From an uncultured Alphaproteobacteria bacterium (GTDB lineage Bacteria > Pseudomonadota > Alphaproteobacteria > Rhodobacterales > Rhodobacteraceae): a DNA stretch of 64,000 nt. Shown piece after piece: positions 9,436-60,460 of this stretch; within the stretch, counting starts at the first letter, position 1; each line of letters opens with the position of its first letter. Location of the stretch: the NCBI GenBank assembly GCA_902533625.1, contig CACAMI010000006.1, positions 17,664 to 81,663 of the forward strand, read 5' to 3'. The notes under the pieces were generated by a model, which saw only the letters and a program-made list of their open reading frames with translations, did not search any database and was not told where the DNA came from. The translations under genes and the position numbers were made by a program.

Positions 9436-9481
9436 AGTCGCACCAAGTTTCTTGGTAGTGCCATAAATAATGCAATCAATT

Positions 9482-10774: not shown

Positions 10775-10917
10775 AATATCTTTAATTATATCTGTTTAAA
10801 CAGGTTTTCTATAAATAAATACTTTTCACTGGTTAACAAGGCTAATAGACTATACATGGTAAATTTTAAAGTAAAATAAAAACATTTGTGTATGTTAAGT
10901 CTTTTTAGGCGGATCCG

Positions 10918-11685
10918 ATGAAAAAACAAAAAATATCATTTTTGTCTTCAGAAAGTAAAAAGAAGGATATTATCAAGCTAAATCACTTGAAGAAAATATA
11001 CGGTGACTTCAGTATTGATGAATGTGACGTTATTGTTGCTCTTGGTGGAGATGGACATATGCTGAATGCTCTTCATATTGCTAAATCTGTTAATAAACCA
11101 GTTTATGGGATGAACCAAGGTACTATAGGTTTTTTGATGAATACATTTTCTAGTGAATTTCTCTTGGAAAGGATTAATAGCTCAGAAGAGACTATAATTC
11201 ACCCATTGCGTATGGAAGCAATTACTGAAGATGGATCTGCCAAAGAAGCGTTGGCGATAAATGAAGTCTCTTTATTGAGATCGGGGCCTCAAGCTGCTAA
11301 GTTAAAGGTTTCCATTGATGATAAGGTAAGGTTAAGTGAACTGATATGTGATGGAGCTCTAGTGTCTACATCTGCAGGATCAACAGCATATAATTATTCA
11401 GCCCATGGACCAATACTACCAATAAATTCTGATGTATTGGCTTTAACAGCTATGTCTGCTTATAGGCCTCGGAGATGGAGAGGTGCTTTACTGGCAAGTG
11501 AAGCAAAGATTTCATTTGAAACAATTAACTATGAAAAACGCCCAGTTTCTGCAATGGCAGATACATTAGAGGTAAAAAATGTCATTACAGTTCATGTTTC
11601 CAGCTACAAAAAAGTATCTTATCATCTGTTATTTGATCCTGGGCATGGATTAGAAGAACGACTGCTTCAGGAACAGTTTTTTTAG
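10918..11685 (+). CDS. nadK: NAD kinase
   Basis: 'VALGGDGHMLNALH' and 'DGALVSTSAGSTAYNYSAHGPILP' NAD-kinase motifs. Confidence 0.93.
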   Translation: MKKQKISFLSSESKKKDIIKLNHLKKIYGDFSIDECDVIVALGGDGHMLNALHIAKSVNKPVYGMNQGTIGFLMNTFSSEFLLERINSSEETIIHPLRMEAITEDGSAKEALAINEVSLLRSGPQAAKLKVSIDDKVRLSELICDGALVSTSAGSTAYNYSAHGPILPINSDVLALTAMSAYRPRRWRGALLASEAKISFETINYEKRPVSAMADTLEVKNVITVHVSSYKKVSYHLLFDPGHGLEERLLQEQFF

Positions 11686-11710
11686 AGTAAATTTGGTTGG
11701 GAAGAAAATT

Positions 11711-12754
11711 ATGAGATCAATCTTAAAAGAGAATGTTTTTTGGGTCTTAATTTGTATGACTTTGGGGGCGTTTTTATTATGGAATATATCTGATATTCTT
11801 GCCCCATTTATTTTAGGAGGAATTCTCGCATACTTGCTTGATCCAATGGCAGATAAAATGGAGTCGTTTGGTGTGCCTCGATTGCTTACCGCTTTAACTG
11901 TAAGCTTATTTGCATTATTTGTTTTGTTGACTGCTGCAATATTAGTTATTCCTATTATTTTTGATCAAATTAATCAGATAATCGGATTTATTCCCTATAT
12001 CACTAATGAAATTTATTTAGTGATGCAAAAGGGTTTTAAGGTACTAAATTTAGGGGAAGTGGAAGATATTGATTTGGTGAATCTAAGTAAGAATTTAAAT
12101 GAAGTTTCACCTATATTTGCTAAATCAATATTTAATTCATCATTTGCAATATTAGATTTTATATTCTTATTAATGGTTACTCCTATTGTCGCTATATACC
12201 TTTTGGTGGATTGGGATAAAATAATTAAGGAAGTAGAAAAGGTTATACCAAGACGTTGGGAGCCCACTATTTCCCAAATTGTTATTGAAATGCATAAAAC
12301 TGTAGCATCATTTCTTAGAGGTCAGTTTAGTGTTTGCATAATTTTAGCTATATTTTACGCCACATCTTTGACTGCCTTGGGTTTAGAATACGGTTTATTA
12401 GTAGGCTTATTTTCGGGGCTAATTTCCTTTATACCCTTAATTGGTGCAATTCTTGGTGGTTTGGTAGCTTTGGTGGTTTCTCTGGCTCAATTTTGGCAAA
12501 CCCCAGAATGGGTTGGTGTAGTTTTAATTATTTTTCTTTTCGGACAAGTTCTGGAAGGCAACCTTTTAACTCCTAGGTTAGTTGGAAAATCTGTTAAGCT
12601 TCACCCTTTATGGATAATTTTCAGTGTTACTTGCTTCGGATCTTTAATGGGTTGGGTTGGTGTAATTTTAGCTGTCCCATCCGCAGCTTGTATAGCTGTT
12701 TTAGTTCGATTCTCTTTAAAGATTTATTTCGAAACTGACTTTTATAAATCTTAA
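11711..12754 (+). CDS. AI-2E/PerM family transporter
   Basis: Multi-TM protein 'PFILGGILAYLLDPMADKM', 'LIGAILGGLVALVV', 'GQVLEGNLLTPRLVGKSVKLHPLWIIFS'. Track start 11693 is a non-ATG codon; ATG at 11711 is more likely. Confidence 0.88.
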   Translation: MRSILKENVFWVLICMTLGAFLLWNISDILAPFILGGILAYLLDPMADKMESFGVPRLLTALTVSLFALFVLLTAAILVIPIIFDQINQIIGFIPYITNEIYLVMQKGFKVLNLGEVEDIDLVNLSKNLNEVSPIFAKSIFNSSFAILDFIFLLMVTPIVAIYLLVDWDKIIKEVEKVIPRRWEPTISQIVIEMHKTVASFLRGQFSVCIILAIFYATSLTALGLEYGLLVGLFSGLISFIPLIGAILGGLVALVVSLAQFWQTPEWVGVVLIIFLFGQVLEGNLLTPRLVGKSVKLHPLWIIFSVTCFGSLMGWVGVILAVPSAACIAVLVRFSLKIYFETDFYKS

Positions 12755-12772
12755 TCAATTTAAGGATCTAAA

Positions 12773-13465
12773 TTGAATTCTGAACAATTAGTTTTTAATC
12801 TTGGCGAGAAGAAAATGATGGGCAGGGATCAGTTTTTTAGATCCCAGTCGAATGAACTAGCACTTAGCATTATAGAAAATTATCCGAAGTGGCCTAAAAA
12901 CAGGTTAGTTTTAGTGGGGCCAAAGGGATGTGGCAAAACTCATATATCATCAATATTTTCGAACGAACTGGATGGGGTTATGTGTTCTGCTGTGGATTTT
13001 AAACTACAAAAAATACAGAATTTAAATAATAATGTAACAGTAATTCTTGAGGATTTAGATCAGTTAGAAAATTTGGATGATGAAGCGGCTAGAATTGTTG
13101 AGGAAGAAATTTTCCACTTACTAGTGAAATTTGAAAATAATAATTTTAGAATATTAGTTACTGGATGCAATAGCCCTTCTCTCTGGCGAATAAATTTACC
13201 AGATTTAAGCTCACGTTTGAAGACATTTCCTGTAGCAAGGATTGATAATCCGGATGACAAACTTTTCTTGAACCTCATTTTAAAATTTTTTTCTGAAAAG
13301 CAACTAAATGCTAGTTCGTCTGTGATAAATTTTATCGCCCCACGTATAGAGCGAACCTATTTATCAGCCAGGAACTTTGTTGAAGAAGTTGATGCTAAGG
13401 CATTAAAAGATAAGCGTGAACTTACTTTGGCTTTGGTTAAAAGTGTGCTAGGAGAATCTGATTAA
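12773..13465 (+). CDS. DnaA-ATPase-domain protein, HdaA-like regulator of replication initiation
   Basis: P-loop 'LVGPKGCGKTHISSIF', DnaA/Hda-like 'FRILVTGCNSPSLWRINLPDLSSRLKTFPVARI', no C-terminal DnaA DNA-binding domain; upstream of ppk as in other alphaproteobacteria. Confidence 0.8.
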   Translation: MNSEQLVFNLGEKKMMGRDQFFRSQSNELALSIIENYPKWPKNRLVLVGPKGCGKTHISSIFSNELDGVMCSAVDFKLQKIQNLNNNVTVILEDLDQLENLDDEAARIVEEEIFHLLVKFENNNFRILVTGCNSPSLWRINLPDLSSRLKTFPVARIDNPDDKLFLNLILKFFSEKQLNASSSVINFIAPRIERTYLSARNFVEEVDAKALKDKRELTLALVKSVLGESD

Positions 13466-13512
13466 TTGTAAGCAAAAAATTTTAGTGTCTTTAGATAATT
13501 TTAATAAGCGAT

Positions 13513-15696
13513 TTGAGAATGGATAGTATTGCGGACTTTTTGACAAAAAACTATTCTGTATCTCCTTCAAATACAAGGATCTCCTTAAAATCTAAGAACA
13601 GATTCTTTAATCGAGAATTGTCCTGGATATCATTTAACTGGAGAGTATTACAGGAGGCAGAAAATGAAAATGTACCCTTAATGGAGAGGGTAAAATTTTT
13701 ATCCATTTCAGCAAGTAATTTAGATGAATTTTATACTGTTAGAGTTGCTGGAATAAAGGAAATGGTTAGGAAGAGAATAAAAATTCAAAGTGATGATGGC
13801 CTTTCGCCCCTAGAGCAATTAAGAGAAATTAATTACCAGGCTAAGGAGTTAATTAGTCATCAGCAGGTAGTTTGGAAGAGTTTGGTAGCTGAGCTTAGAA
13901 AGGAAGGAATAGGTTTTTTAGCCATAGATGAGCTCACTAAGAAAGACGTTAGATTCTTGGAAGAGAAATTCTTGAAAGATATTTTTCCTGTTTTGTCACC
14001 AATGGCAATAGATCCGGCACATCCTTTTCCATTTATTGCTTCAGGTGGTTTCGCTCTTGCACTTTCGCTTAAAGGCGAAAATTCTGATGAGCGCTTAGAT
14101 ATTATATTGCCCGTTCCTGCCCAGATAGATAGGTTTCATAGGTTGGAAGAGAATAAAGTTGATAGGTATAGATTTATTCTTATGGAAGACATACTTAGCT
14201 TATTCATAAAAAATATTTTTCCTGGGTATAAATTAAGCGGTAAATTTAGCTTTAGACTATTAAGAGATAGCGATCTAGAAGTAGAAGAAGAAGCTGAGGA
14301 TCTTGTAAGGGAATTTGAAACAGCACTAAAGCGGCGACGTAGAGGTGAAGTGATTAGAATGAAGGTATCTTCAGAATTTCCTGTGGAGCTCCTTGAGTTG
14401 GTTTCTTCATCTATTGGTGTTTCCAAGCACGAGATAGTAACGGTGGATGGCTTGGTTGGAATGACGGATTTACATGATCTGCAAATTTCAGAACGTTCAG
14501 ATTTAATTTGGCCAGAGTTTAAGCCTAGGCTGCCGGAAAGAGTTGAAGATTATGACGGTGACATTTTTTCAGCAATTAAGAAAAAAGACATGCTATTGCA
14601 TCACCCATACGAGACCTTTGAAACCGTAATTAACTTCATAGAGCAAGCAGCATCTGATCCAAATGTTTTGGCAATAAAACAAACACTTTACCGAACAAGC
14701 TGGGATAGTCCTGTAGTGAAGGCTCTTTGCGAAGCTGCAGAAAATGGAAAATATGTTACCGCATTGGTAGAATTGAAGGCAAGATTTGATGAGGCTACGA
14801 ATATTCGACAATCTAGGGCGCTGGAGAGGGCAGGAGCTCAAGTAGTTTACGGTTTTATTGATTGGAAAACGCATGCAAAAGTTTCTACTGTTGTTAGGAG
14901 AGAAGGTCAAAATTTAGTCACTTACACGCACATTGGGACCGGAAATTACCACCCTGTAAATGCAAAGATTTATACTGACTTAAGTTTATTTACATGTGAT
15001 GAAGCGTTAGGTAGTGATGCCAATAAAGTATTTAATTATGTATCTGGTTATGCTCCACCTTTAGAGTTAGAAAATTTGAGAGTCTCTCCGCTAAACTTAA
15101 AATCAACCTTAATTGAAAATATAAGAAATGAAATCAAGCATAAGAGGGCTGGTAAACCTGGGGTTATATGGGCAAAACTAAACTCTCTAATCGAACCAGA
15201 TATCATTGATTGCCTTTATGAGGCTAGTAATGCAGGAGTGCAAATAAACCTAATAGTTAGAGGAATTTGTGGATTGAGACCTGGTATCAAAGATTTATCT
15301 GAGAACATAAGAATTAAATCGATAATTGGAAGATTCTTAGAGCATTCTAGGATTGCTTGTTTTGGAAATGGCTACGGTCTTCCTTCTAAAGAAGCAAAGG
15401 TTTATATTTCTTCTGCTGATTGGATGAGCAGAAACCTTACCAGAAGAGTAGAAACATTAGTTGAAATTAAGAATAAAACTGTGCATGCACAGATTGTGGA
15501 TCAAATTATGGCAGCTAATTTAGCAGATACTGAACAAAGTTGGGTTTTAGATTCTGAAGGTATCTATCACCGCGGTACCTCTCCAGATACCAAGGATAAA
15601 TTTAACTGTCATGAATTTTTTATGAAAAATCCATCAATGTCTGGTCGAGGTAAAACAGGTGGAAATGATGTGCCTAAATTAAAAAATCTAATTTAA
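13513..15696 (+). CDS. ppk: Polyphosphate kinase 1
   Basis: 727 aa; 'FFNRELSWISFNWRVLQEAE', 'SNLDEFYTVRVAGI', 'DPNVLAIKQTLYRTS', 'HAKVSTVVRRE', 'THIGTGNYHPVNAKIYTDLSLFT'. Confidence 0.97.
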   Translation: MRMDSIADFLTKNYSVSPSNTRISLKSKNRFFNRELSWISFNWRVLQEAENENVPLMERVKFLSISASNLDEFYTVRVAGIKEMVRKRIKIQSDDGLSPLEQLREINYQAKELISHQQVVWKSLVAELRKEGIGFLAIDELTKKDVRFLEEKFLKDIFPVLSPMAIDPAHPFPFIASGGFALALSLKGENSDERLDIILPVPAQIDRFHRLEENKVDRYRFILMEDILSLFIKNIFPGYKLSGKFSFRLLRDSDLEVEEEAEDLVREFETALKRRRRGEVIRMKVSSEFPVELLELVSSSIGVSKHEIVTVDGLVGMTDLHDLQISERSDLIWPEFKPRLPERVEDYDGDIFSAIKKKDMLLHHPYETFETVINFIEQAASDPNVLAIKQTLYRTSWDSPVVKALCEAAENGKYVTALVELKARFDEATNIRQSRALERAGAQVVYGFIDWKTHAKVSTVVRREGQNLVTYTHIGTGNYHPVNAKIYTDLSLFTCDEALGSDANKVFNYVSGYAPPLELENLRVSPLNLKSTLIENIRNEIKHKRAGKPGVIWAKLNSLIEPDIIDCLYEASNAGVQINLIVRGICGLRPGIKDLSENIRIKSIIGRFLEHSRIACFGNGYGLPSKEAKVYISSADWMSRNLTRRVETLVEIKNKTVHAQIVDQIMAANLADTEQSWVLDSEGIYHRGTSPDTKDKFNCHEFFMKNPSMSGRGKTGGNDVPKLKNLI

Positions 15697-15717
15697 TAAA
15701 ATCCTAATTATCTAAAA

Positions 15718-17214
15718 ATGCTGATATCAAACCAAAAGTTTAGCCGAACAGAAACATTTAAAACAGCAATAATTGATATTGGCTCAAATTCTGTAAGGAT
15801 AGTCATTTTAAAAGGTCTCAAGCGATCTCCAGAATATTTTTATAACGAAAAAGTTATATGCAAGTTGGGGTTTGGAGTGAAGGCAAAGGGATTTCTGAAC
15901 CCAGAAGGAATTTCGCTAGCTTTTAAGACACTTGCAAGATTTTCCTTACTCATATCAAAAATGAAAGTTGATATGACTATTGGTGTTGCGACGGCAGCTG
16001 TCAGAGAGGCTAAAGATGGTCAAGAATTTTTGGGAAAAGTGAGTAAGGAAACAGGAATTCCATTTAGAGTTTTGTCAGGTCTGCAAGAAGCAAAATATTC
16101 TGCTAAGGGTGTTTTGTTTGGTTGGCCAAAAGCTAATGGACTTGTTTGTGATATTGGGGGACTTTCTGTGGAGTTTTGTGAAGTATTAAAAGGAGAAATC
16201 CTTAGTGCTCAATCTGTTAATCTTGGTCCATTAGCCTTTGCAAACGAAAAAGAAATGGAAGGGCAGAAAAGATCATTTAAGCACAGTTTTAAAAACATAA
16301 ACAGTAAACTGACCAGAAAAAATAAGAGCGTGTTTTTAGTAGGAGGTGCCTGGAGAGCTCTAGCTAAGGTGGATATGGAGTTGAAAGGCTATCCATTAAA
16401 AATTCTTCATGAATACCGAATGCGATCTAAAGAGATGGAGGAGACTGCATCTTGGTGTCTTTCCCAATCTGAAGTTGAAATCATCAAGAGGACAGGATTA
16501 TCTAAAGCTAGAGTGTCTTCTATCAAACATGCTTGCCGAGTAATACTAGATTTAATCATAATTTTAAAGCCAGATAAATTTTTTGTTTCTTCATATGGTT
16601 TAAGGGAAGGGCTATTTTTTGAAAAATTGGACAAATGTGTGAAGGTTCAAGACCCTTTAATCGAAGTCTCTTTAGATTATGAAAAAAGCTCAGCGCGGTT
16701 CCCTGGTTTTGGAGTAGAACTCTATGATTGGGTATTACCAATTTTTTCAAAATTAACCAAGCTGGAGCAGAAGGTAATTCTATCTGCTTGCTTATTGCAT
16801 GATACTATTTGGTTTGCTCACCCAGATTACAGATCGGAATTATGTGTGGAAACTATAACGCGAGCAAATATGGTAGGAATTGATCATAGTGGGCGACTTT
16901 TTTTAGGGCTAGCCTTAGCTTTTCGTTATAAGGGCGGAACTCAAATTTCTGAACTTCCGACTTTTAGAATTTTACGTAAGAGAGATAAGGAAAAAGCAAT
17001 TATACTTGGCAAGGCAATGCGATTAGGCGCTTTACTTTCTGGATCTGCTCTAGGCGGCTTAACAAAAGCCAAGCTTAGTGTCTCTTCTAAGGAACTTGTT
17101 TTAATGATTGATGAAGATGCTAAGGCATTGGCAGGTGGGATAGTGAAAAAAAGACTAGTGTCTTTAGGGGATGCATTGAATTTAAAGGCAAAACTAGTTA
17201 TTGAGAATGTGTGA
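15718..17214 (+). CDS. ppx: Exopolyphosphatase / Ppx-GppA phosphatase
   Basis: 'AIIDIGSNSVRIVILKG', 'GVATAAVREAKDG', 'VCDIGGLSVEF'; directly downstream of ppk. Confidence 0.92.
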   Translation: MLISNQKFSRTETFKTAIIDIGSNSVRIVILKGLKRSPEYFYNEKVICKLGFGVKAKGFLNPEGISLAFKTLARFSLLISKMKVDMTIGVATAAVREAKDGQEFLGKVSKETGIPFRVLSGLQEAKYSAKGVLFGWPKANGLVCDIGGLSVEFCEVLKGEILSAQSVNLGPLAFANEKEMEGQKRSFKHSFKNINSKLTRKNKSVFLVGGAWRALAKVDMELKGYPLKILHEYRMRSKEMEETASWCLSQSEVEIIKRTGLSKARVSSIKHACRVILDLIIILKPDKFFVSSYGLREGLFFEKLDKCVKVQDPLIEVSLDYEKSSARFPGFGVELYDWVLPIFSKLTKLEQKVILSACLLHDTIWFAHPDYRSELCVETITRANMVGIDHSGRLFLGLALAFRYKGGTQISELPTFRILRKRDKEKAIILGKAMRLGALLSGSALGGLTKAKLSVSSKELVLMIDEDAKALAGGIVKKRLVSLGDALNLKAKLVIENV

Positions 17215-48822: not shown

Positions 48823-50229
48823 ATGATTTTGATTAATGAGTTTTCGGGAAGTAAGGCAGCCGTTCTTGGTTTAGGTAGAACAGGCATTTCTGTTTTGAAT
48901 TCTTTAAATAATAGCGGGGTAGATACAGTCTGTTGGGATGATAATGTTGATGCAAGACAGCAGGCCAAAGAGCTTGGTTTTAATGTGGAAAATATTTTAC
49001 ACGGGTCAAATTGGGCTAAATTTGATCTGTTGATAATTTCTCCAGGGATATCTTTCTTATACCCTGAGCCACATGATGTTGTAAAAAAGGCACGCCAAAA
49101 CAATGTTAGAATTGACAACGATATTGGCCTTTTTTTTTCATCTATAGATAAGAATTATTGGGAAAAATTTGAAAAGGAGCCCAGAATAATAGGTGTTACA
49201 GGCTCTAATGGTAAATCCACAACATCATTTTTGATTAGCCACTTAATCGAGAGAGCGGGGATCCCTAGTGAGATTGGTGGTAACTTTGGCAAACCAGTTC
49301 TTTCGTTTAATCCATTTAAGGATGGCGAAGTGAAAATTATTGAATTGTCATCATATCAAACAGAAGTAGCTTCCACCTTAAAGTGTGACATTAGTGTCTT
49401 TTTAAATTTTTCGCCTGATCATTTGGACAGACATGGAGGCGCAGGAGGTTACTTTAATGCAAAGCAGAGACTTTTTACAATTGGAAATTCTGAACGAAAT
49501 ATTATTTGTGTGGATAATAAAGAAGGAGAGTTTTTGTTCAACTCCCTTGAAACAGATGAATTAGCTAGAGGTTTAAACATTGCCATAGCATCTCAAAGAA
49601 ATGTTTCAAACTATGGGTGGTCAGTATTTATAAATAAAGGATTCCTGGTAGAGTGGAAAAATAGAAAGCAGGTAGCATCATTTGACTTAAAACCTCGCTT
49701 AAGTTTTTTGAAATCTTTCAATCTTCAAAATATTTGCGCTGCTTATGCAGTTGCCCGATCACTTAATATTTCTCCTAAAGCAATCTGGGAAAGTCTAGAT
49801 TCATTTGAAGGACTGAGTCATCGTAATCAATTGGTCTTAGAAAAAGATGGAGTTAAGTATGTGAATGACAGTAAGGCTACTAATGTTGAGGCTGCGCTGA
49901 ACTCCATTCTGCAATATGATAGCGTACGTCTAATATTAGGAGGTTTGGCTAAGAAGGGTGGCATTTCAAAACTTACTATGCACATGAATCAAGTGAAGAA
50001 AATTTATCTCATTGGAGATGCCGCTAAAGATTTTTCTTCGGAATTAAAAGGTAATGTAGAATATGAAATTTCAAAAACTCTAGAAGAGGCTGTTACTTCA
50101 GCTACAAATGATTCTGTTGCTGGTGACTGCATTTTATTGGCGCCAGCTTGTGCAAGTTTTGATCAGTTTAAAGACTTTGAAGAAAGGGGAAAAAAATTTA
50201 TTTCTCTGGTTGAGAATATAAAAAATTAA
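48823..50229 (+). CDS. murD: UDP-MurNAc-L-alanine--D-glutamate ligase
   Basis: 'IGVTGSNGKSTTSFLISHLI', 'LNFSPDHLDRHGG', 'YVNDSKATNVEAALNS', 'LAPACASFDQFKDFEERGKKF'. Confidence 0.97.
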   Translation: MILINEFSGSKAAVLGLGRTGISVLNSLNNSGVDTVCWDDNVDARQQAKELGFNVENILHGSNWAKFDLLIISPGISFLYPEPHDVVKKARQNNVRIDNDIGLFFSSIDKNYWEKFEKEPRIIGVTGSNGKSTTSFLISHLIERAGIPSEIGGNFGKPVLSFNPFKDGEVKIIELSSYQTEVASTLKCDISVFLNFSPDHLDRHGGAGGYFNAKQRLFTIGNSERNIICVDNKEGEFLFNSLETDELARGLNIAIASQRNVSNYGWSVFINKGFLVEWKNRKQVASFDLKPRLSFLKSFNLQNICAAYAVARSLNISPKAIWESLDSFEGLSHRNQLVLEKDGVKYVNDSKATNVEAALNSILQYDSVRLILGGLAKKGGISKLTMHMNQVKKIYLIGDAAKDFSSELKGNVEYEISKTLEEAVTSATNDSVAGDCILLAPACASFDQFKDFEERGKKFISLVENIKN

Positions 50230-50254
50230 GGTTTCAATTTGATTATTTTGTAAT

Positions 50255-51604
50255 ATGATCAGAAAAAAATGTAAGGAAAAAACTATGGCACACGACACAA
50301 CACCAAACTCGCTAGACAAGCAATGGATACCTTTTACAGACAATAGAGGATTTAAAGCTGAACCACGCCTTGTGACCGAAGCCTCTGGAGTTTATTTAAC
50401 CAGTCATAGAGATACTAAAGTCATTGATGGATCATCAGGACTTTTTTGCTGCCCTGCTGGCCACTGTCATCCAAAAATAATAGAAGCCGTTCATGAGCAA
50501 ATGAAAATAAATACCTATACATCTCCTTTTGGAATGGGTCATCCAAAAAGCTTTTTGTTGGCTGATAAAGTAGCAGAGCTGACACCGAAAGGGATGAATC
50601 ACGTTTTCTTTGTTAATTCTGGCTCAGAAGCTGTGGATACAGCCTTAAAGATCGTAATGGCATATCATTCTGCGAAAGGAGAAAACCGAAATCGATTTGT
50701 AAGCAGAGAAAGAGCTTACCATGGTGTTAACATGGGAGGTGTTTCACTGTCGGGAATGGTTAATAACCGAAGAACATTTCCAGTTACTATGCCTAACGTA
50801 GTCATGATGAGGCATACCTGGACAGGGGAGGAATTAAATATAAAAGGTCAACCAGAAAACGGTAAGGAATTGGCCGAGGATTTAGAGAGATTTGCCCAGA
50901 CATATGGGGGAAATACTATAGCTGCCTGTTTTGTTGAACCTGTAGCTGGGTCTACTGGTACCCTTGTGCCTCCTAAAGGATACTTGGAACGCTTAAGAGA
51001 AATATGTGACGCACATGGAATAATTCTTGTTTTTGATGAAGTCATTACTGGATTTGGAAGAATGGGAACAAACTTTGCCTCTGACAAATTTGGAGTTAAG
51101 CCAGATATAATGACTATGGCTAAAGCTTTGACCAATGGATCTATGCCAATGGGTGGAGTTTGTGTGCGCGATGAAATTTATGATACAGTGGTGGATAGTG
51201 CCAACCCTGGAGCAATTGAATTTTTCCATGGTTATACATATTCTGGCCATCCAGCGGCTTGTGCTGCAGGAGTTGCTTCATTAGAAATATATAAGGAAGA
51301 GGATCTTTTTAGCCGTGCTTCAGAAATGTCAGGTTATTTTAGCGAGTGTATTCATAGTCTATCAGACCATCCGCTTGTCAAAGATATTCGCTCGATTGGC
51401 ATGATGGCTGGAGTAGAAGTTCATGCTCAAGACGCTCCTGGAAAACGAGGTACGCAGCTTCAGAAATCTATGTTTTGGAATGGACTGCATGTGAAATTCA
51501 CAGGAGATTCAGGTATTGTTGCCCCTATGTTTATTTCTGAGAGGCAGCATATTGATGAAATAATAGAAAAATTTCGTGATACTCTTAATCAGCACTCAAA
51601 CTAA
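50255..51604 (+). CDS. Class III omega-amino acid/beta-alanine--pyruvate-type aminotransferase
   Basis: 'KQWIPFTDNRGFKAEPRLV', 'GKELAEDLERFAQTYGGNTIAACFVEPVAGSTGTLVPPKGYLERLREICDAHGIILVFDEVITGFGRMG', 'AKALTNGSMPMGGVCV'. Confidence 0.88.
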   Translation: MIRKKCKEKTMAHDTTPNSLDKQWIPFTDNRGFKAEPRLVTEASGVYLTSHRDTKVIDGSSGLFCCPAGHCHPKIIEAVHEQMKINTYTSPFGMGHPKSFLLADKVAELTPKGMNHVFFVNSGSEAVDTALKIVMAYHSAKGENRNRFVSRERAYHGVNMGGVSLSGMVNNRRTFPVTMPNVVMMRHTWTGEELNIKGQPENGKELAEDLERFAQTYGGNTIAACFVEPVAGSTGTLVPPKGYLERLREICDAHGIILVFDEVITGFGRMGTNFASDKFGVKPDIMTMAKALTNGSMPMGGVCVRDEIYDTVVDSANPGAIEFFHGYTYSGHPAACAAGVASLEIYKEEDLFSRASEMSGYFSECIHSLSDHPLVKDIRSIGMMAGVEVHAQDAPGKRGTQLQKSMFWNGLHVKFTGDSGIVAPMFISERQHIDEIIEKFRDTLNQHSN

Positions 51605-51758
51605 AGAAAGATGTTTGAATATTTTAGAGTAAAGTGATGGCCTAAAATATACTGGAATAAAATTAGGTTCAGCTCTTTATTTATGTTTAAGCGGACGTTT
51701 AGCCAGAGCTATTCTTATGCTTTTAGCTTTGAGAACTTTTTTGAAAAAGAAAATCAGT

Positions 51759-52958
51759 ATGAAAAATATGACATTTAATAAATCTTTTACCCAACAGGAA
51801 CCAATTCCGGCAGAATCCATAAGGTCTGCGGTGAATGTCTTGCGTTCTGGAAGATTACATCGCTATAACACTCTGGATGAAGAACAGAGTGAGACTGCGT
51901 TACTTGAGAAAGAATTTTCTGAATGGCAGGGGTCAAAGTTTTGTTTAGCAACGACCTCCGGAGGAACTGCTATGCAGATCGCTTTGAGGGCTGCTGGAGT
52001 CAAAGCAGGGGATAAAGTTCTTACGAATTCTTTTACCTTAGCACCAGTTCCAGGAGCCATTCATACCTTGAACGCAGAACCAATTCTTATAGACAGTACG
52101 AAAGATTTGGTTTTGGATTTAGAGGATTTGCAATTGCGGATGAAGAGTTCAAAGGCAAAATTCATGCTCGTTTCTCACATGAGAGGACACTTGGTGAATA
52201 TGAGATCACTTGTTAAAATTTTAAAAGAAAATGGTATTATTTTAATTGAAGATTGTGCTCATACTATGGGGGCTTACTGGAACAATGTTAGATCTGGAAA
52301 CTTTGGTTCTATTTCTTGCTTTAGTACTCAAACCTACAAACATTTAAATAGTGGTGAAGGTGGCTTTATAACCACTAATGATAGTGGCATGATGGCTACC
52401 TGTATTCTTCTTTCAGGATCTTATATGCTTTATGAAAAGCACAATTCTTTACCTAAAAAAAGTTTCTTTGAGAAGAAAAAATTCGAAGTCCCAAATTGTT
52501 CTATGAGAATGGATAACTTGAGAGCCTCAATACTTAGGCCACAAATAAAAAAGATTGATGCAAATATCCAAAAGTGGAATGACCGGCATCATATTTTTAC
52601 ATCAACTCTGGGAAAACTGGAATCTATTTATATCCCCCAAAGGTCTAAAGAAGAGAAATATGTTGGGTCATCTTTCCAATTTCTGGTTCCAAGAAATTGG
52701 TCTGAGATAAATTGTGTAGAGTTTTTGACAAGATGTAAAAAGAGGGGAGTGGAGATTAAATGGTTTGGAAATTTAAAGCCAGTTGGATATACCAGTCGAC
52801 ACGAAAGTTGGAAATACATAAAAGCACAGAATTTGCCTAACATACCAAAAATTGTTACCAGAGTGATGGATATACGAATTCCGCTAACTTTTACACTTAG
52901 AGACTGTCGAGTAATCTCTAAGATAATTTCTGAAGAAGTTAAAAAAATTAAATTTTAG
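51759..52958 (+). CDS. DegT/DnrJ/EryC1/StrS-family PLP aminotransferase
   Basis: 'FCLATTSGGTAMQIALRAAGVKAGDKVLTNSFTLAPVPGAI', 'IEDCAHTMGAYWNNVRSGNFGSISCFSTQTYKHLNSGEGGFITT' (catalytic Lys in TYKHLN). Track start 51717; ATG at 51759 is plausible. Confidence 0.82.
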   Translation: MKNMTFNKSFTQQEPIPAESIRSAVNVLRSGRLHRYNTLDEEQSETALLEKEFSEWQGSKFCLATTSGGTAMQIALRAAGVKAGDKVLTNSFTLAPVPGAIHTLNAEPILIDSTKDLVLDLEDLQLRMKSSKAKFMLVSHMRGHLVNMRSLVKILKENGIILIEDCAHTMGAYWNNVRSGNFGSISCFSTQTYKHLNSGEGGFITTNDSGMMATCILLSGSYMLYEKHNSLPKKSFFEKKKFEVPNCSMRMDNLRASILRPQIKKIDANIQKWNDRHHIFTSTLGKLESIYIPQRSKEEKYVGSSFQFLVPRNWSEINCVEFLTRCKKRGVEIKWFGNLKPVGYTSRHESWKYIKAQNLPNIPKIVTRVMDIRIPLTFTLRDCRVISKIISEEVKKIKF

Positions 52959-52985
52959 CAGGATCTCTTTCTTAGGGCAGATGAT

Positions 52986-54275
52986 TTGACAATAAATTTT
53001 TTGAAGAAAAAAATAATCCAAAAGACTATCCATGAATCGGATGTATCGATAGTTGTTAAGGATATCTTAGATCATATCAGCTCTGGAGGAGACCAGGCAC
53101 TTCTAGAGTTCGCAAAAAAATTTGATAACTGGGAGGGAAAAATAGAAGTATCATCTGATATTATTCAAAATGCTAACAATTTGGTTAAGAAGAGTATAAA
53201 GGATGACATCTTATATGCTTACAGAAACATAAAAGTATTTGCAGAGAGGCAGCTAGAAAGCATATCGGAATTTGATTTGGAGGTAGCGCCAGGACTTAAT
53301 GCTGGTCAGAAAATTATCCCGCTTGAGACAGCTGGATGCTACGTTCCTGGAGGCAGGTATAGTCATATAGCATCGGCGCTAATGACTGTCACGACAGCGA
53401 AAGCAGCTGGAGTTAAAAATATAATTGCATGTACTCCACCAAATTCTAATGTTATTGGCGCTGAACCAATTTCAAATGAAATGCTTTACACTCTAAATCT
53501 ATCTGGGGCCGATAAAATATTTTTGGTGGGAGGAGTGCAGGCTATCGCTTTAATGGCAAATGGCCTTTTGGGCACTCAAAAGGCTGACATAATTGTTGGG
53601 CCTGGAAATCAATATGTCGCTGAAGCAAAGAGACAAATTTTTGGAGCCACAGGCATTGATTTACTAGCTGGACCTACAGATGTCTTAATTATAGCTGATG
53701 AAGAGGCAGATGCTGAACTAGTTGCGACTGATTTGGTCAGCCAAGCTGAGCACGGTTATAATTCTCCAGTGTGGTTAGTAACAACTTCAAATATTTTGGC
53801 GAAAAAAGTTTTGCAACTTGTTCCTGAAATAATCGAAAAACTTCCTGCTCAGAATAAATTAAACGCTTCCCAAGCATGGCGAGAGCTGGGGGAAATCATC
53901 CTATGTTCGACAAGGGTAGAAGCTGTTAAAATAGCGAATGAAATAGCTCCAGAGCATTTACATGTACAGGCAACTGAGCCGGATTGGTGGAAAGGTGAGC
54001 TCAATTCTTATGGTTCTCTATTTCTAGGAGAAGAAACAACAGTGGCTTTTGGAGATAAAGCTGCCGGACCAAATCATGTGTTGCCAACATCAGGTGCTGC
54101 AAAGTATACAGGGGGTCTGTCAGTTCATAAGTTCATAAAGGTGGTTACTTGGCAAAAAGCCGAGAGTAGGTCATTAAACCGCCTTGCAGAAGTAACTGCT
54201 AATATTTCTAGACTAGAAGGAATGGAAGCACATGCGCTTTCTGCCGATGTAAGGTTAAAAAAATATCGAAAATAG
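52986..54275 (+). CDS. Histidinol-dehydrogenase-family protein, HpsN-like (sulfopropanediol 3-dehydrogenase candidate)
   Basis: HisD-family 'ETAGCYVPGGRYSHIASALMTVTTAKAAGVKNIIACTPP', 'LVSQAEHGYNSP', 'VAFGDKAAGPNHVLPTSGAAKYTGGLSVHKFIKVVTWQ'; no other his gene is nearby. Confidence 0.75.
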   Translation: MTINFLKKKIIQKTIHESDVSIVVKDILDHISSGGDQALLEFAKKFDNWEGKIEVSSDIIQNANNLVKKSIKDDILYAYRNIKVFAERQLESISEFDLEVAPGLNAGQKIIPLETAGCYVPGGRYSHIASALMTVTTAKAAGVKNIIACTPPNSNVIGAEPISNEMLYTLNLSGADKIFLVGGVQAIALMANGLLGTQKADIIVGPGNQYVAEAKRQIFGATGIDLLAGPTDVLIIADEEADAELVATDLVSQAEHGYNSPVWLVTTSNILAKKVLQLVPEIIEKLPAQNKLNASQAWRELGEIILCSTRVEAVKIANEIAPEHLHVQATEPDWWKGELNSYGSLFLGEETTVAFGDKAAGPNHVLPTSGAAKYTGGLSVHKFIKVVTWQKAESRSLNRLAEVTANISRLEGMEAHALSADVRLKKYRK

Positions 54276-54302
54276 GATTATTAATATAGAAAAGGTAGAA
54301 AA

Positions 54303-55298
54303 ATGAATTTAGGAAGGTTTCCAAGGATAAAATTAGGTCATATGAATACCCCAATTGAGTTTTTGCCAAGGCTTACTGAGAAAATTGGTAAGGCAGAAAT
54401 TTGGATAAAGAGGGATGACTGTACAGGCTTATCAACTGGTGGAAATAAAACAAGAAAATTAGAATTTCTTATGGCTGAGGCAATCAACCAGGGTTCTGAT
54501 TTGATTTTAACTCAAGGGGCAACCCAATCAAACCATGTAAGGCAAACCTCAGCCGCAGCAGCTAAGCTTGGTCTTGATTGTCATGTATTGCTAGAAGACC
54601 GTACTGGAATAGAAACAATAAACTATAAGCTGAATGGAAATGTTTTGTTGAATTCTTTACATGGAGCAACGTCAGAGCATAGGCCTTCGGGTATTGATAT
54701 GGATCAGGAATTAATTAATGTTTCAGAGAAATTTATTTCAAAGGGTAGGAAGACTTATGTGATTCCTGGTGGAGGTTCTAATCCAACTGGCGCCCTAGGT
54801 TACGTCAATTGTGCCCAAGAGATTGTTTATCAAAGTAGTGAAATGGGAAAGCCGTTTGATTTCATTGTTCATGCTACTGGATCAGCAGGGACTCAGGCTG
54901 GTCTAGTGACTGGTTTAAAGCTTTTGAATTCTGGTATTCCTTTGTTAGGAATTGGTGTTCGAGCATCAAAAATAGATCAGGAGGAAAAAGTTTTTAATTT
55001 GGCTAAATTAACCTCTGAGAGAATATCTAAAATACAGCTTGTTAAGCGCGAAGACGTTATTGCTAATTGTGATTTTGTAGGGCCCGGTTACGGTTTGCCA
55101 GACACTTCAACTCTTGATGCAATAAGGCTTTTTGCAGAGCTGGAGGGGATTTTATTAGACCCTGTATATTCGGGAAAGGGCGCTGCAGGTTTGATACAAC
55201 TTTTAAAAGATGATTTTTTTAGCAGCTGTAAAAGAATTCTTTTTGTCCATACTGGAGGTGCTGTAGCCCTATCAGGTTATCTAGAGTCGTTCACTTAA
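54303..55298 (+). CDS. D-cysteine desulfhydrase/ACC deaminase-family PLP enzyme, CuyA-like (L-cysteate sulfo-lyase candidate)
   Basis: '[70 protein letters not shown]', '[16 protein letters not shown]'; adjacent to the HpsN-like gene and upstream of SoeABC-like genes. Confidence 0.75.
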
Positions 55299-55301
55299 GT
55301 T

Positions 55302-55997
55302 ATGAGAAAGGTAGGGATATTAGGTGGCATGGGGCCAGAGGCAACTATTCTTTTGATGAAGAAAATCATTGAATGTACAAAAGCTCAAGATGATCAAGAC
55401 CATATCCCGCTTCTGGTAGATAACAATACTCAGGTTCCTAGTAGGATCGAGGCAATTATTAATAAAAATGGTTCAGATCCATTGCCAGAGCTCTGTAAGA
55501 TGGCTAGCTCATTGGAGAAAAATGGAGCCTCGGCCTTGGCCATGCCATGTAATACAGCTCATTTGTATATAAAAGAAATTCGAAAACAAATAAAAATCCC
55601 TTTTATTAGTATAGTGGAAGAGTCTGCTGCCTATTTAAAAAAAGTACAATTTGGGGCAAAAAAAATTGGCATTTTGGCTTCACCCGCGGTAAAAATTACA
55701 AAGATATTTGAGCATGAGCTGGAAAAAAATAATATGAACCTAATTTATATTGGGGATGAAAACTTAATTTTAAGTACGATAAAGCAAATTAAATCAAATT
55801 TTGTATCTGGTTCAGTTTCAGAAAAATTAGAAGAGATTTCAATTCAGGCTAAATCGATACAATTAGATTTAATATTAATAGCCTGCAGTGAGTTTTCGAT
55901 AGTTTCTGATGAAATCAAGAGAAAGTTCAATATTCCTGTGGTCGACACTTTGGATATCCTTGCTTCAAGAATTGTTAATTTCTCTAAGAAGAATTGA
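55302..55997 (+). CDS. Aspartate/glutamate racemase-family protein
   Basis: 'KVGILGGMGPEATILLMKKIIE', 'LAMPCNTAHLYIKEI', 'DLILIACSEFSIV' with paired Cys motifs. Confidence 0.85.
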   Translation: MRKVGILGGMGPEATILLMKKIIECTKAQDDQDHIPLLVDNNTQVPSRIEAIINKNGSDPLPELCKMASSLEKNGASALAMPCNTAHLYIKEIRKQIKIPFISIVEESAAYLKKVQFGAKKIGILASPAVKITKIFEHELEKNNMNLIYIGDENLILSTIKQIKSNFVSGSVSEKLEEISIQAKSIQLDLILIACSEFSIVSDEIKRKFNIPVVDTLDILASRIVNFSKKN

Positions 55998-56006
55998 GAG
56001 AAAAAG

Positions 56007-58832
56007 GTGACATCATTTCAGCCCAAAATTGATACATCTCCAAAAGTTTCATCAACGATATCCAGAACTACTTGTTATATGTGTGCCTGTCGATGCGGGA
56101 TTAATGTCCATTTAGAAAATGGCAAAGTAAAATATATTGAAGGAAATAAAGATCATCCTGTGAATAAAGGTGTCCTTTGTGCGAAAGGTTCAGCGGGAAT
56201 AATGCAGCATTACTCTCCTGCCAGACTGCAGTCCCCCATGAAGAGAGTAGGCCCTCGTGGTTCAGGAGAGTTCGCTAAAATCAGTTGGGAAGAAGCTTTG
56301 ACTTCAGTTGCTAATTTGTTAGGACCTATTAGACGCAAAGCTCCAGAGAAGTTGGCGTTCTTTACTGGGCGCGACCAATCTCAATCATTTACTGGTTGGT
56401 GGGCTCAGCAATTTGGAACGCCCAACTATGCTGCTCATGGTGGTTTCTGTTCTGTAAATATGGCTGCAGCCGGAATTTATACCATGGGGGGCTCATTTTG
56501 GGAATTTGGAAGTCCAGATTGGGAAAGAACTAAACTTTTGATGATTTTTGGGGTTGCAGAGGATCATGACAGTAACCCTATAAAGATGGGTCTTGGTAAA
56601 TTAAAAAAAAGAGGTGCTAAGGTAATTGGGGTTAATCCTGTTAGGACTGGTTATAATGCAATTGCAGATGAATGGGTTGGGATTACTCCAGGAACTGATG
56701 GCCTGTTTATATTATGCTTAATAAGAGAGTTGCTTCTATCAGGGAATGTTGACCTAAAGTATCTTGCCAATTACACTAACGCACCATTTTTAGTTAATAC
56801 CGAGCATAACTCAGCAAATTTGGGACTAATTGCTAGAAATAAAAATGGAGAACCATTAATTCATGATAGAATTAAAAAGAAGATCCATGCCTTTAGCGGA
56901 AAAAATGTTAAGCCCCATCTCACTGGAAAAGTAACTATTGATGGTCAGGAGCATACTACAGTTTTTGAGCTTCTGGCTGAAAAATATTTGAAAAAAGAAT
57001 ACTCCCCTGAAGAGGTTTCAAAAAAATGTGGAATATCTCCTTTTCAGATAAAAAAACTAGCAAAAGAAATAGCAGATACTGCCTTCAAGGAAGAAATAGT
57101 GATTGATCAGGAGTGGGTTGATTGGAAAGGTGTTAACCACAAAAAAATGGTTGGCCGCCCTGTAAGCTTTCATGCAATGAGGGGAATTTCAGCACATTCC
57201 AATGGGTTTCAAACCTGCAGATCCTTACATCTTTTGCAAATACTTTTGGGAAGCATTGAAGTTCCTGGTGGCTTTAGGTTTAAGCCGCCTTACCCAAAAT
57301 CATATTTAGTGCATCCTAAACCACATCATAAAGTAACCCCGGGTATGCCGCTAGACGGTCCTCATTTGGGGTATATCCAATCACCCGAAGACTTAGCTGT
57401 GGACTCTGATGGAAAACCTAAAAGAATTGATAAAGCATTTTCCTGGGAAAATCCATTTTCAGCCCATGGTTTAATGCACATGGTTATTTCTAATGCATAT
57501 GCAAATGATCCTTACGAGATAGATACTCTTTTCTTGTATATGGCAAATATGGCATGGAACTCGTCAATGAATACCCAAAGTGTGATTGAAATGCTAACAG
57601 CAAAGAAGGATGATGGGACTTATAAAATAAAAAATATTGTTTATTCGGATTCCTATTCATCGGAAATGGTTTCATATGCGGATATAATATTGCCAGATAC
57701 TACTTACCTGGAGAGGCATGATTGTATTTCTCTTTTGGATAGACCTATTGGAGAGCCTGACATAATTGCCGATGCCATTAGATGGCCAGTGGTTGAGCCT
57801 GATCGTGATGTAAGATGCTTTCAGTCGGTACTTCTTGATCTTGGTCACAGATTGAAAATGCCTGGGTTTATTAAAGATAATGGAGATCCAACTTATAAAG
57901 ACTATGAGGATTATATAAAAAACCATGAGAGGAAACCTAATATTGGACCTTTAGCTGGTTTTAGGGGTGAATCTGGTATTGAAAGTGGGAGAGGCTCTCC
58001 CAACGCCAACCAAATAAAAAACTATATCAAAAATGGGGGTTTTTGGTCTGAAGATATCCCAGTTGAATTTCAATTCTTTAAGCCATGGAATATCGGCTAC
58101 CAGAACTGGGCAGTAGAAAAAGGCCTTTTTGATGAACCAAAGCCTTACGTTTTTGAAATCTATTTAGAACCTTTGGCCAAATTTCAAAGAGCTGCTAAAG
58201 GTTTGGGTTCGGTGAAGTGCCCTACCAATATGCAGGAAAGAATTCTAAAGACCATGGATCCTTTGCCTATTTGGTATGATCCTATTGGTGAGAGCGACGA
58301 TAATGAAGCATACCCTTTGCATGCTATCACGCAAAGACCAGCTGCGATGTACCATAGCTGGGGAAGTCAAAACGCTTGGTTGAGACAGATTCATGGTTAC
58401 AATTATCTTTTTGTTTCAAGTGAGATATGGGAGAAAAACAAATTTCATGAAGGTGACTGGGCCATTCTAGAGTCCGTTCATAATTCAATCACTGTTCCAG
58501 TTGCAAAAATGGAAGCCGTTAATAAAAATACAGTTTGGACATGGAATGCAATAGGTAAGAAATCTGGGGCCTGGGCTCTCGATAAAGGAGCTCCTGAGTT
58601 TAATAAAGGATTTTTAATTAACCATTTAATCAGTGAATTACTTCCTCCAAAAAAAAATGGGTTTAGATGTTCAAATTCTGACCCTATTACTGGACAAGCA
58701 GCATGGTTTGATCTGAAAGTCCGCATTAGAAAGGCTAAAGCAGGTGAAGTTAAAGATAGGAAAATAGAAAAATCTCATAAGAGCCCAGTAGACATGCCCC
58801 CTAAGGTGATATCTTATGGCAAGGATTTTTAA
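56007..58832 (+). CDS. soeA: Molybdopterin oxidoreductase catalytic subunit, SoeA-like (cytoplasmic sulfite dehydrogenase candidate)
   Basis: 941 aa; N-terminal 4Fe-4S 'CYMCACRCGINV...GVLCAKG', Mo-bis-MGD domain; no twin-arginine signal; followed by SoeB/SoeC-like genes. GTG start. Confidence 0.75.
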   Translation: MTSFQPKIDTSPKVSSTISRTTCYMCACRCGINVHLENGKVKYIEGNKDHPVNKGVLCAKGSAGIMQHYSPARLQSPMKRVGPRGSGEFAKISWEEALTSVANLLGPIRRKAPEKLAFFTGRDQSQSFTGWWAQQFGTPNYAAHGGFCSVNMAAAGIYTMGGSFWEFGSPDWERTKLLMIFGVAEDHDSNPIKMGLGKLKKRGAKVIGVNPVRTGYNAIADEWVGITPGTDGLFILCLIRELLLSGNVDLKYLANYTNAPFLVNTEHNSANLGLIARNKNGEPLIHDRIKKKIHAFSGKNVKPHLTGKVTIDGQEHTTVFELLAEKYLKKEYSPEEVSKKCGISPFQIKKLAKEIADTAFKEEIVIDQEWVDWKGVNHKKMVGRPVSFHAMRGISAHSNGFQTCRSLHLLQILLGSIEVPGGFRFKPPYPKSYLVHPKPHHKVTPGMPLDGPHLGYIQSPEDLAVDSDGKPKRIDKAFSWENPFSAHGLMHMVISNAYANDPYEIDTLFLYMANMAWNSSMNTQSVIEMLTAKKDDGTYKIKNIVYSDSYSSEMVSYADIILPDTTYLERHDCISLLDRPIGEPDIIADAIRWPVVEPDRDVRCFQSVLLDLGHRLKMPGFIKDNGDPTYKDYEDYIKNHERKPNIGPLAGFRGESGIESGRGSPNANQIKNYIKNGGFWSEDIPVEFQFFKPWNIGYQNWAVEKGLFDEPKPYVFEIYLEPLAKFQRAAKGLGSVKCPTNMQERILKTMDPLPIWYDPIGESDDNEAYPLHAITQRPAAMYHSWGSQNAWLRQIHGYNYLFVSSEIWEKNKFHEGDWAILESVHNSITVPVAKMEAVNKNTVWTWNAIGKKSGAWALDKGAPEFNKGFLINHLISELLPPKKNGFRCSNSDPITGQAAWFDLKVRIRKAKAGEVKDRKIEKSHKSPVDMPPKVISYGKDF

Positions 58833-59585
58833 ATGACTAGCTTACCTAGACAAACAGATAAAAAATTGGGGTTGGCTATCGATCTTGATACCTGTGTAGG
58901 ATGCCATGCATGTGTGATAAGTTGCAAAGAATGGAATACTTCAAACTATGGAGTGCCATTGTCTGATGTTGAACCTTATGGTGCAAACCCTGTTGGATCT
59001 TTCCTTAATAGAGTCCATACTTTTGAGGCAAAATTAGAAGAACGACCAGCCCAAATAATTCATTTCCCAAAATCATGTTTGCACTGTGAGGATGCGCCAT
59101 GTGTTACGGTTTGTCCAACTGGAGCAAGCTACAAGAGAACGGAAGATGGGATAGTTTTGGTAAATGAAGACTGGTGTATAGGGTGTGGTTTATGCGCATG
59201 GGCGTGCCCTTATGGTGCGCGTGAAATGGATGAGGTTGCCGGGGTAATGAAAAAATGTACTCTGTGCGTTGATAGAATTTACAATGAAAACATACCTGAA
59301 GAGGATAGAGAGCCGGCGTGTGTGCGATCTTGTCCAGCTGGTGCTCGGCATTTTGGTGATTTTGCAGATCCTACTTCTTCGGTTTCGAAACTAACTAAGG
59401 AGAGAGGAGGAATTGATCTAATGCCTGAGCAAGGCACAAAACCTGTAAATAAATATCTGCCACCTAGGTTAAAAAATGATATTGCTCAGGAAAACTTTGA
59501 TGTCCTGAGGCCTTTACTTGAGGAGCATGATAAGAATATTTCTGGTTTCTTATCATGGGTAGACAAAACTTTAGAGAAATTCTAA
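58833..59585 (+). CDS. soeB: 4Fe-4S ferredoxin subunit, SoeB/DmsB-like
   Basis: Four Cys clusters: CVGCHACVISC, CLHCEDAPCVTVC, CIGCGLCAWAC, CTLC...CVRSC; starts directly after the SoeA stop. Confidence 0.8.
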   Translation: MTSLPRQTDKKLGLAIDLDTCVGCHACVISCKEWNTSNYGVPLSDVEPYGANPVGSFLNRVHTFEAKLEERPAQIIHFPKSCLHCEDAPCVTVCPTGASYKRTEDGIVLVNEDWCIGCGLCAWACPYGAREMDEVAGVMKKCTLCVDRIYNENIPEEDREPACVRSCPAGARHFGDFADPTSSVSKLTKERGGIDLMPEQGTKPVNKYLPPRLKNDIAQENFDVLRPLLEEHDKNISGFLSWVDKTLEKF

Positions 59586-60460
59586 TGCATCCAGCTCCAT
59601 CTATTATAATTTTTACAGTATTTTCAGGACTAGGTTTTGGACTAATGGCATATTTAGGTTTTGATACGGATCCGTTAAGAGGTTGGAACGTTTTGCCTTA
59701 CTATTTGATAGCCTTTTCCCTTTCAATAGGAGGCCTTTTATCGTCACTTTTCCATCTTGGAAACCCTCAAAGGGCTTGGCGGGCTTTATCACAATGGAGA
59801 ACCAGTTGGCTTAGCAGAGAAGGAGTTCTGGCAATAGTTACTCTTGCATTAAACTTTCTATTTGGGCTGAGTTTGTTTTTTTCATTGGATTATTCAAAAA
59901 ACCTTGGGTTCGTTAGTGGTATTTTCGCAATTATTACCGTGTTTTCAACGGCAATGATCTATGCACAAATGAAAACTGTACCGAGATGGAATAATTCAGG
60001 AGTGCCTATACTCTTTATTCTCTGTTCCTTAGCGGGGGGAGCCATAATAATGGGAGATTTTAAATTAGGTCTGATTGGTGTAATTCTGTCAACTCTCATA
60101 CAACTTTTGGTTTGGGTAAGGGGTGACAAGGCTTTAAAAAATTCTAGTACTAACATTTCAACTTCTACTGGACTTAAAAATTTGGGAAAATTGAGATTGT
60201 TAGAATCTCCTCATACTGGTGAAAATTATTTAATGAAGGAAATGGTTTTTGTTATTGCTAGAAAACACGTATTTAAATTAAGAATACTTTCTCTTTGTTT
60301 TTTAGGAGTAATACCGGTAATTTTTCTCATTTTGAGTTTGTCTGTAGGCTTCTTAATTGGCCTGGCAATGATAAGTTATTTTTTTGGGCTATTAATTTCG
60401 CGATGGTTATTTTTTGCTGAGGCTGAACATGTAGTCAGCTTCTATTATGGTAGAGGTTGA
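59585..60460 (+). CDS. soeC: DmsC/SoeC-type membrane anchor subunit
   Basis: Polytopic protein 'HPAPSIIIFTVFSGLGFGLMAYLG', 'FHLGNPQRAWRALSQWRTSWLSREGVLAI'. Likely ATG at 59585 (TAATG overlap with soeB) rather than the track start 59555. Confidence 0.82.
   Translation: MHPAPSIIIFTVFSGLGFGLMAYLGFDTDPLRGWNVLPYYLIAFSLSIGGLLSSLFHLGNPQRAWRALSQWRTSWLSREGVLAIVTLALNFLFGLSLFFSLDYSKNLGFVSGIFAIITVFSTAMIYAQMKTVPRWNNSGVPILFILCSLAGGAIIMGDFKLGLIGVILSTLIQLLVWVRGDKALKNSSTNISTSTGLKNLGKLRLLESPHTGENYLMKEMVFVIARKHVFKLRILSLCFLGVIPVIFLILSLSVGFLIGLAMISYFFGLLISRWLFFAEAEHVVSFYYGRG

Follow-up and report, generated by a model that had tools for sequence, protein, structure and literature searches.

A candidate seven-gene operon for C3 aminosulfonate breakdown via cysteate in an uncultured Rhodobacteraceae bacterium

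Described sulfonate systems and the locus

HpsN oxidizes the C3 alcohol of R-2,3-dihydroxypropane-1-sulfonate (R-DHPS) to the acid, and SoeABC oxidizes sulfite, with the electrons passing to the quinone pool. The dissimilation of cysteate by CuyA and CuyB was reportedly described by Liu et al. in J Biol Chem in 2024. In Ruegeria pomeroyi, CuyA is SPOA0158 and SoeABC is SPO3557-3559. Relatives of these enzymes are encoded together at positions 50255-60460 of a 64,000-nucleotide stretch (hereafter, the window) of contig CACAMI010000006.1, from an uncultured Rhodobacteraceae bacterium (assembly GCA_902533625.1, 75% complete). In the known DHPS pathway, hpsN is accompanied by hpsO, hpsP and transporter genes and then by slcD, suyAB or comDE (PMC4334477, PMC11382572). 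Cysteate use in R. pomeroyi proceeds via cuyARZ, and its sulfite dehydrogenase genes are arranged soeCBA-pta (PMC4334477).

We propose that seven genes of the locus could form an operon for the complete breakdown of a C3 aminosulfonate via cysteate, in which the HpsN-like enzyme would oxidize cysteinolate, a reading to which we give roughly an even chance. The predicted CuyA, CuyB and SoeABC steps are well supported by protein models and gene neighbourhood. An earlier note on this DNA had described eight consecutive plus-strand genes from 50255, and the coordinates and gaps match the list of open reading frames (ORFs; Table 1). From the DegT-family aminotransferase gene (degT) through soeC, the gaps are 27, 27, 3, 9, 0 and -31 bp, the widest being 27 bp and the last a 31-bp overlap of soeB and soeC. 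Because of this spacing, degT, the HpsN-like gene, cuyA, cuyB, soeA, soeB and soeC look like one transcript. The start of degT was set at the ATG at 51759, not at 51717 as in the ORF list, on the basis of the family's conserved N-terminus and the sequence. With this start, ~154 bp separate degT from the class III aminotransferase gene (aptA) before it, which is the sole wide gap of the locus. A promoter and terminator scan gave counts no higher than in shuffled sequence. The clustering itself exceeds chance, because dozens of other genomes have the same genes as direct neighbours.

Family assignment of the encoded enzymes

Both CuyA and CuyB exceed the cut-offs of their equivalog models (Table 1). 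D-cysteine desulfhydrase was rejected as the function of CuyA, since it reaches 287-306 bits on those equivalog models (cut-offs 429-610), as was the coenzyme M synthesis enzyme XcbE (245 bits, cut-off 450). CuyA also scores higher on its own model than on 1-aminocyclopropane-1-carboxylate deaminase models. It is 65.6% identical to SPO_RS20630, a megaplasmid protein of R. pomeroyi DSS-3 whose gene adjoins a sulfate exporter gene. In CuyB, C83 and C195 are invariant among 10 homologues. CuyB scores above the cut-off in 44 of 199 genomes from the same family. Of 43 stretches centred on CuyB, 36 have an adjacent cuyA, 22 an HpsN-like gene and 8 DegT. The locus thus resembles described cysteate dissimilation in both proteins and in their adjacency, but differs in that cuyA and cuyB share an apparent operon with genes for an HpsN-like dehydrogenase, a DegT aminotransferase and SoeABC, the last in place of the sulfite exporter CuyZ.

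The HpsN-like protein scores far higher against solved (R)-DHPS dehydrogenases (8wwe, 489 bits; 8v35, 469 bits) than against the best histidinol dehydrogenase (HisD; 242 bits). Alignment shows that it retains the HpsN sulfonate-site motif GGRYSH, where HisD has other residues at RY-x-H. It also keeps the catalytic EH, DK and NH and, at the zinc and sulfonate site, the Glu/His, Asp/Lys and His residues. The final His of GGRYSH contacts the sulfonate in CpHpsN (PMC11382572). On these scores and residues, assignment to the HpsN family is firm. The protein falls inside a 17-member branch of proteins linked to cuyA or cuyB (support 98/94; 99 by SH-like approximate likelihood ratio test in another tree), in which L119 is the only member without detected cuyA/cuyB-type neighbours. 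RpHpsN falls in the separate hpsNOP clade (95/86). The family, and its zinc, sulfonate and catalytic residues, are those of the hpsKLM-hpsNOP(Q)-slcD clusters of the Roseobacter group and Cupriavidus; unlike these, the window locus has no hpsO, hpsP or hpsKLM beside the HpsN-like gene, and the tree favours the cuy-linked branch for its protein. Linkage to hpsO and hpsP has been the criterion for selecting HpsN proteins (PMC11382572).

The earlier note had raised the case that this protein is the genome's only histidinol dehydrogenase. It is literally the sole PF00815 protein of the assembly, yet a HisD role was rejected on the bit scores, the HpsN motif, the tree and a sister genome. It lies outside the HisD clade (100/100), although its branch is long and an approximately unbiased (AU) test of placing it with HisD gave p 0.051. 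Contig C41 of the sister genome (G001) carries a true hisD (514 bits) adjoining hisB, and both genes are missing from the 75%-complete source assembly. The most straightforward reading is that an assembly gap took out the his operon, since hisB is missing too while the sister genome has hisD beside hisB. A further HisD-family group, ~41% identical to the window protein (L213, L214, L217, L219, L222 and L225), is accompanied by short-chain dehydrogenases ~38% identical to HpsO and seems to be a branch of its own.

For the SoeABC-like enzyme, the molybdenum subunit scores far below the cut-offs of the curated PhsA, DmsA, TtrA, Fdh and NarG models, and dimethyl sulfoxide, thiosulfate and tetrathionate reductase were rejected on these scores. 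No twin-arginine signal was seen in the SoeA-like subunit, which is therefore probably cytoplasmic. SoeA homologues 65% identical occur in soeABC sets beside ackA-pta (L087) or an xsc-like gene (L104); SoeB is 69-75% and SoeC 44-47% identical to their counterparts there. Its identity as SoeABC, by synteny and exclusion only, appears well supported. Subunit order, the missing twin-arginine signal and homologues near ackA-pta or xsc-like genes recall the R. pomeroyi enzyme; here, in contrast, the genes lie within the cuy operon and the genome's own xsc-pta cluster is on another contig. The genome has a single SoeA. At L087 (positions 9391-16968, genome G011), soeABC-ackA-pta adjoins LysR/hpsN-cuyB, with no cuyA at that place.

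The catalytic lysine of the DegT protein, within TYKHLNSGEGG, is invariant across 15 aligned homologues. Its nearest solved structures, at 121-154 bits, aminate keto sugars and keto cyclitols, the closest being 2-deoxy-scyllo-inosose aminotransferase (2c7t). It shares the fold family and catalytic lysine of the DegT/DnrJ/EryC1/StrS sugar aminotransferases, but forms a distinct subfamily with conserved SHMRGH and GRLHRY motifs and a sulfonate gene neighbourhood. Homologues 41-56% identical adjoin CuyA, CuyB or HpsN-like genes in alpha- and gammaproteobacteria, and DegT is a recurrent partner of HpsN, CuyA and CuyB across both classes. In about 34 roseobacters (L143, L153, L160 and ~30 further loci among L131-L210), a gene of the same subfamily stands alone directly after gph, where glmU and glmS are neighbours and the core position is conserved. 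This could be a sign that the reaction serves biosynthesis as well, and the stand-alone enzyme might supply cysteinolate for the roseobacter sulfur aminolipid. The class III aminotransferase AptA, found beside cuyA in just 1 of the 43 comparable loci (L093), was rejected as a core part and is probably a neighbour of the operon.

Thus, the compact C3-organosulfonate island of the earlier note, with an HpsN-family enzyme, CuyA, a racemase and SoeABC, is borne out by models and neighbourhood. Its CuyA-like protein is not a D-cysteine desulfhydrase, and its SoeABC-like assignment held up by the synteny and exclusions given above. The racemase it took for a non-standard member is CuyB, the named cysteate racemase. 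Of the two leading aminotransferases that it listed with the island, only DegT proved to be a recurrent partner.

Table 1. Genes of the sulfonate locus, with positions in the window
Feature	Position	Strand	Evidence
Class III aminotransferase, AptA type	50255..51604	+	NF052567 579.9 bits, cut-off 500; operon membership doubtful
DegT/DnrJ/EryC1/StrS-family aminotransferase	51759..52958	+	Pfam PF01041; ORF as listed 51717-52958
HpsN-family NAD-dependent dehydrogenase	52986..54275	+	489 bits to 8wwe; GGRYSH motif
CuyA, D-cysteate sulfo-lyase (pyridoxal phosphate)	54303..55298	+	NCBIfam NF052482 492.6 bits, cut-off 450
CuyB, cysteate racemase	55302..55997	+	NCBIfam NF052483 250.8 bits, cut-off 190
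SoeA-like molybdopterin subunit, putative sulfite dehydrogenase	56007..58832	+	Molybdopterin and Fe4S4 domains
SoeB-like iron-sulfur subunit	58833..59585	+	Fer4_11 and related domains
SoeC-like DmsC/NrfD membrane anchor	59555..60460	+	DmsC PF04976 56 bits

Recurrence of the genes and a proposed route from cysteinolate

For the majority of the window protein's branch, the HpsN-like gene belongs to a three-gene unit, LysR/hpsN-cuyA-cuyB, placed between housekeeping genes and present in several complete genomes. In nine genomes with the cuy-linked unit, the PF00815-type proteins are true HisD and cuy-linked HpsN only. No HpsP orthologue was found in these nine (best full matches ≤39%, and one short 57% fragment in G143), whereas four control genomes with hpsNOP have HpsP at 67-100% identity. 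Two of the nine (G044 and G011) have neither the ComC nor the SuyB family, and in one genome (G174) both HpsN systems are present as separate paralogues. The arrangement LysR/cuyA-degT-cuyB-tauABC-'hisD' is found on annotated plasmids of Shinella, Mesorhizobium and Ancylobacter, with rearranged versions in Paracoccus, Leisingera and Pseudomonas sp. MPC6 and a further set in Polaromonas. The gammaproteobacteria Oceanisphaera and Marinomonas have cuyA-hpsN-degT-TRAP-cuyB (TRAP, tripartite ATP-independent periplasmic transporter) and cuyA-hpsN-degT-cuyB, respectively. An alignment search of genome contigs with DegT returned at least 586 relatives, and among the best 80 of these, HpsN, CuyA or CuyB is near DegT in 24. 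SoeABC adjoins such genes in two loci (L087, hpsN-cuyB; L147, degT-soeABC).

Cysteinolate, 2-amino-3-hydroxypropane-1-sulfonate, has an amino group at C2 where DHPS has a hydroxyl. In the proposed route, the HpsN-like enzyme would carry out one four-electron, NAD-linked oxidation of cysteinolate to cysteate, in parallel to the conversion of an amino alcohol to an amino acid by histidinol dehydrogenase; with configuration retained, the R-enantiomer of cysteinolate would yield R-cysteate, which is L-cysteate. CuyB would interconvert L- and D-cysteate, CuyA would release pyruvate, ammonium and sulfite from D-cysteate, and the SoeABC-type enzyme would oxidize sulfite to sulfate in the cytoplasm. 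The preferred substrate of CuyA is D-cysteate (PMC11382572). A racemase would be needed next to the HpsN-like gene because the oxidation would yield L-cysteate while CuyA prefers the D-form. In CpHpsN crystals, L-cysteate occupies the product position with a pose "essentially identical" to that of R-sulfolactate (PMC11382572), and histidinol, a 2-amino alcohol, is weakly oxidized by RpHpsN (PMC11382572, PMC11131964).

The least certain step is that of DegT, whose role is a guess with some support. It might interconvert cysteinolate and 3-hydroxy-2-oxopropane-1-sulfonate, which would also admit the DHPS-derived ketone. Sulfopyruvate is also a possible partner, but the hydroxyketone would be the more natural one, because the solved relatives act on keto cyclitols and sugars.

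We favour cysteinolate as the substrate because the LysR/hpsN-cuyA-cuyB unit would be complete from cysteinolate but two enzymes short of CuyA from DHPS, and because, among the loci collected, cuy- or DegT-linked HpsN genes and hpsO/hpsP-linked ones show a striking lack of overlap (counts given below with the DHPS route). The path that the earlier note called incomplete as seen is thus incomplete from DHPS only. Its proposed entry step, DHPS to sulfolactate, is doubtful, as no hpsO, hpsP or suyAB accompanies the cuy-linked HpsN type.

Cysteinolic acid can exceed dimethylsulfoniopropionate in microalgae and lies in the range of DHPS (PMC8703288), and axenic algae hold more of it than algae with their bacteria. 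No bacterial genes for cysteinolate catabolism were named in the literature searched, which excluded the 2024 CuyB paper. The cassette occurs on plasmids and chromosomes of alpha-, beta- and gammaproteobacteria. It is tempting, if slightly harder to uphold than the reading of the window itself, to see here a widespread and undescribed route for this algal osmolyte, consisting of an HpsN paralogue, CuyB/CuyA and a new DegT subfamily that would link to DHPS via the ketone. If the HpsN-like enzyme is a cysteinolate dehydrogenase, then counting hpsN as a marker for DHPS in ocean metagenomes conflates two substrates, and the LysR/hpsN-cuyA-cuyB unit of several complete genomes would provide a cultivable test case.

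Alternative routes and the rest of the genome

Several findings weigh against the cysteinolate reading. The active-site residues of the window protein are identical to those of DHPS-specific HpsN, so sequence alone cannot separate the two substrates, and positions that differ between cuy-linked and hpsNOP HpsN lie outside the named active-site residues and give no substrate clue. The protein is on a long branch, and despite the support of 98/94 for its cuy-linked clade, the AU test did not reject a grouping with hpsNOP-type HpsN (p 0.066). The genome is just 75% complete, and a sulfolactate route could be completed elsewhere through SlcD, the membrane-bound sulfolactate dehydrogenase (SPO0598 in R. 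pomeroyi). Finally, 12 of the 43 CuyB loci have cuyA without hpsN, from which it follows that cuyAB also serves free cysteate.

There are three alternatives to consider. The first, which we judge unlikely but the strongest of the three, starts from DHPS: HpsN would convert R-DHPS to R-sulfolactate, a dehydrogenase encoded elsewhere would form sulfopyruvate, DegT would make cysteate, and CuyB, CuyA and SoeABC would finish. This is the published third DHPS pathway, whose sulfopyruvate aminotransferase gene is called unknown in R. pomeroyi (PMC11382572), and DegT could be that aminotransferase. Every HpsN catalytic residue is retained, and hpsO/hpsP-like genes are near DegT in 2 of the 80 best DegT loci. 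The source genome also encodes two Ldh_2 proteins, but their identity to hps-linked ComC is just 34-36%, and they lie amid unrelated genes. On maps made with tblastn, none of 45 HpsN loci with cuyA, cuyB or DegT has hpsO or hpsP, and none of 12 other HpsN loci with hpsO or hpsP has cuyA, cuyB or DegT, a split partly shaped by sampling, since the loci were gathered through CuyB, DegT or PF00815. Also absent from all 45 are comC and suyAB (slcD was not searched for). Moreover, many units have neither DegT nor a recognised sulfolactate dehydrogenase, and the nearest solved DegT enzymes use keto sugars or cyclitols, not 2-oxo acids. In two gammaproteobacterial loci (L176, Thioglobus; L204), an HpsN-type gene and SuyB-like genes occur at most 10 kb from DegT, with ComC-like genes also in L176; here, a link of DegT to DHPS metabolism is possible.

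In the second alternative, 3-hydroxy-2-oxopropane-1-sulfonate, imported or internal, would be converted by DegT to cysteinolate and by the HpsN-like enzyme to cysteate, which CuyB and CuyA would desulfonate. DHPS-producing algae were found to contain the ketone as well as cysteinolic acid (PMC11131964). Consecutive steps are suggested by HpsN-DegT pairs that lack other pathway genes (hpsN-degT dyads alone in L152, L165 and L185; L137 with TRAP genes), and the DegT family suits an alpha-hydroxy ketone. Against this, DegT is not obligatory, being absent from 17 of the 22 HpsN-CuyB loci of the family, and we know of no transporter for the ketone, which makes entry at this point quite improbable. 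The third alternative, that free cysteate is the substrate of CuyA, CuyB and SoeABC and that the HpsN-like and DegT genes are bystanders on the transcript, would fit the loci with cuyA-cuyB but no hpsN or degT (the 12 above) and the use of cuyARZ for cysteate in R. pomeroyi, but is very hard to sustain given that the HpsN-like gene accompanies cuyA/cuyB in several separate branches of the family, in varied gene order, on chromosomes and plasmids of three proteobacterial classes.

No SuyAB, Xsc or transporter is found in the region examined, in agreement with the earlier note. In the 75%-complete assembly as a whole, there is no SuyB and no second hisD, and HpsP has no orthologue, its best match being 25% identical. 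On contig C2, however, Pta and a TauABC-type transporter are encoded together with a true Xsc (917 bits). This TauABC may be the importer of the cassette, because TauABC-type genes lie inside the cassette elsewhere.

At 48823-50255 of the window, the dcw cell-wall cluster stops at murD, and aptA begins 25 bp after it. The cluster continues as ftsW-murG-murC on contig C2 of the same genome (G000; L230:14256-L231:9138), where tauABC end 125 bp ahead of ftsW and xsc-pta are divergent. Sulfonate genes thus lie at both broken ends of the dcw cluster. In the sister genome G001, a divergent xsc is beside ftsW, without tauABC.

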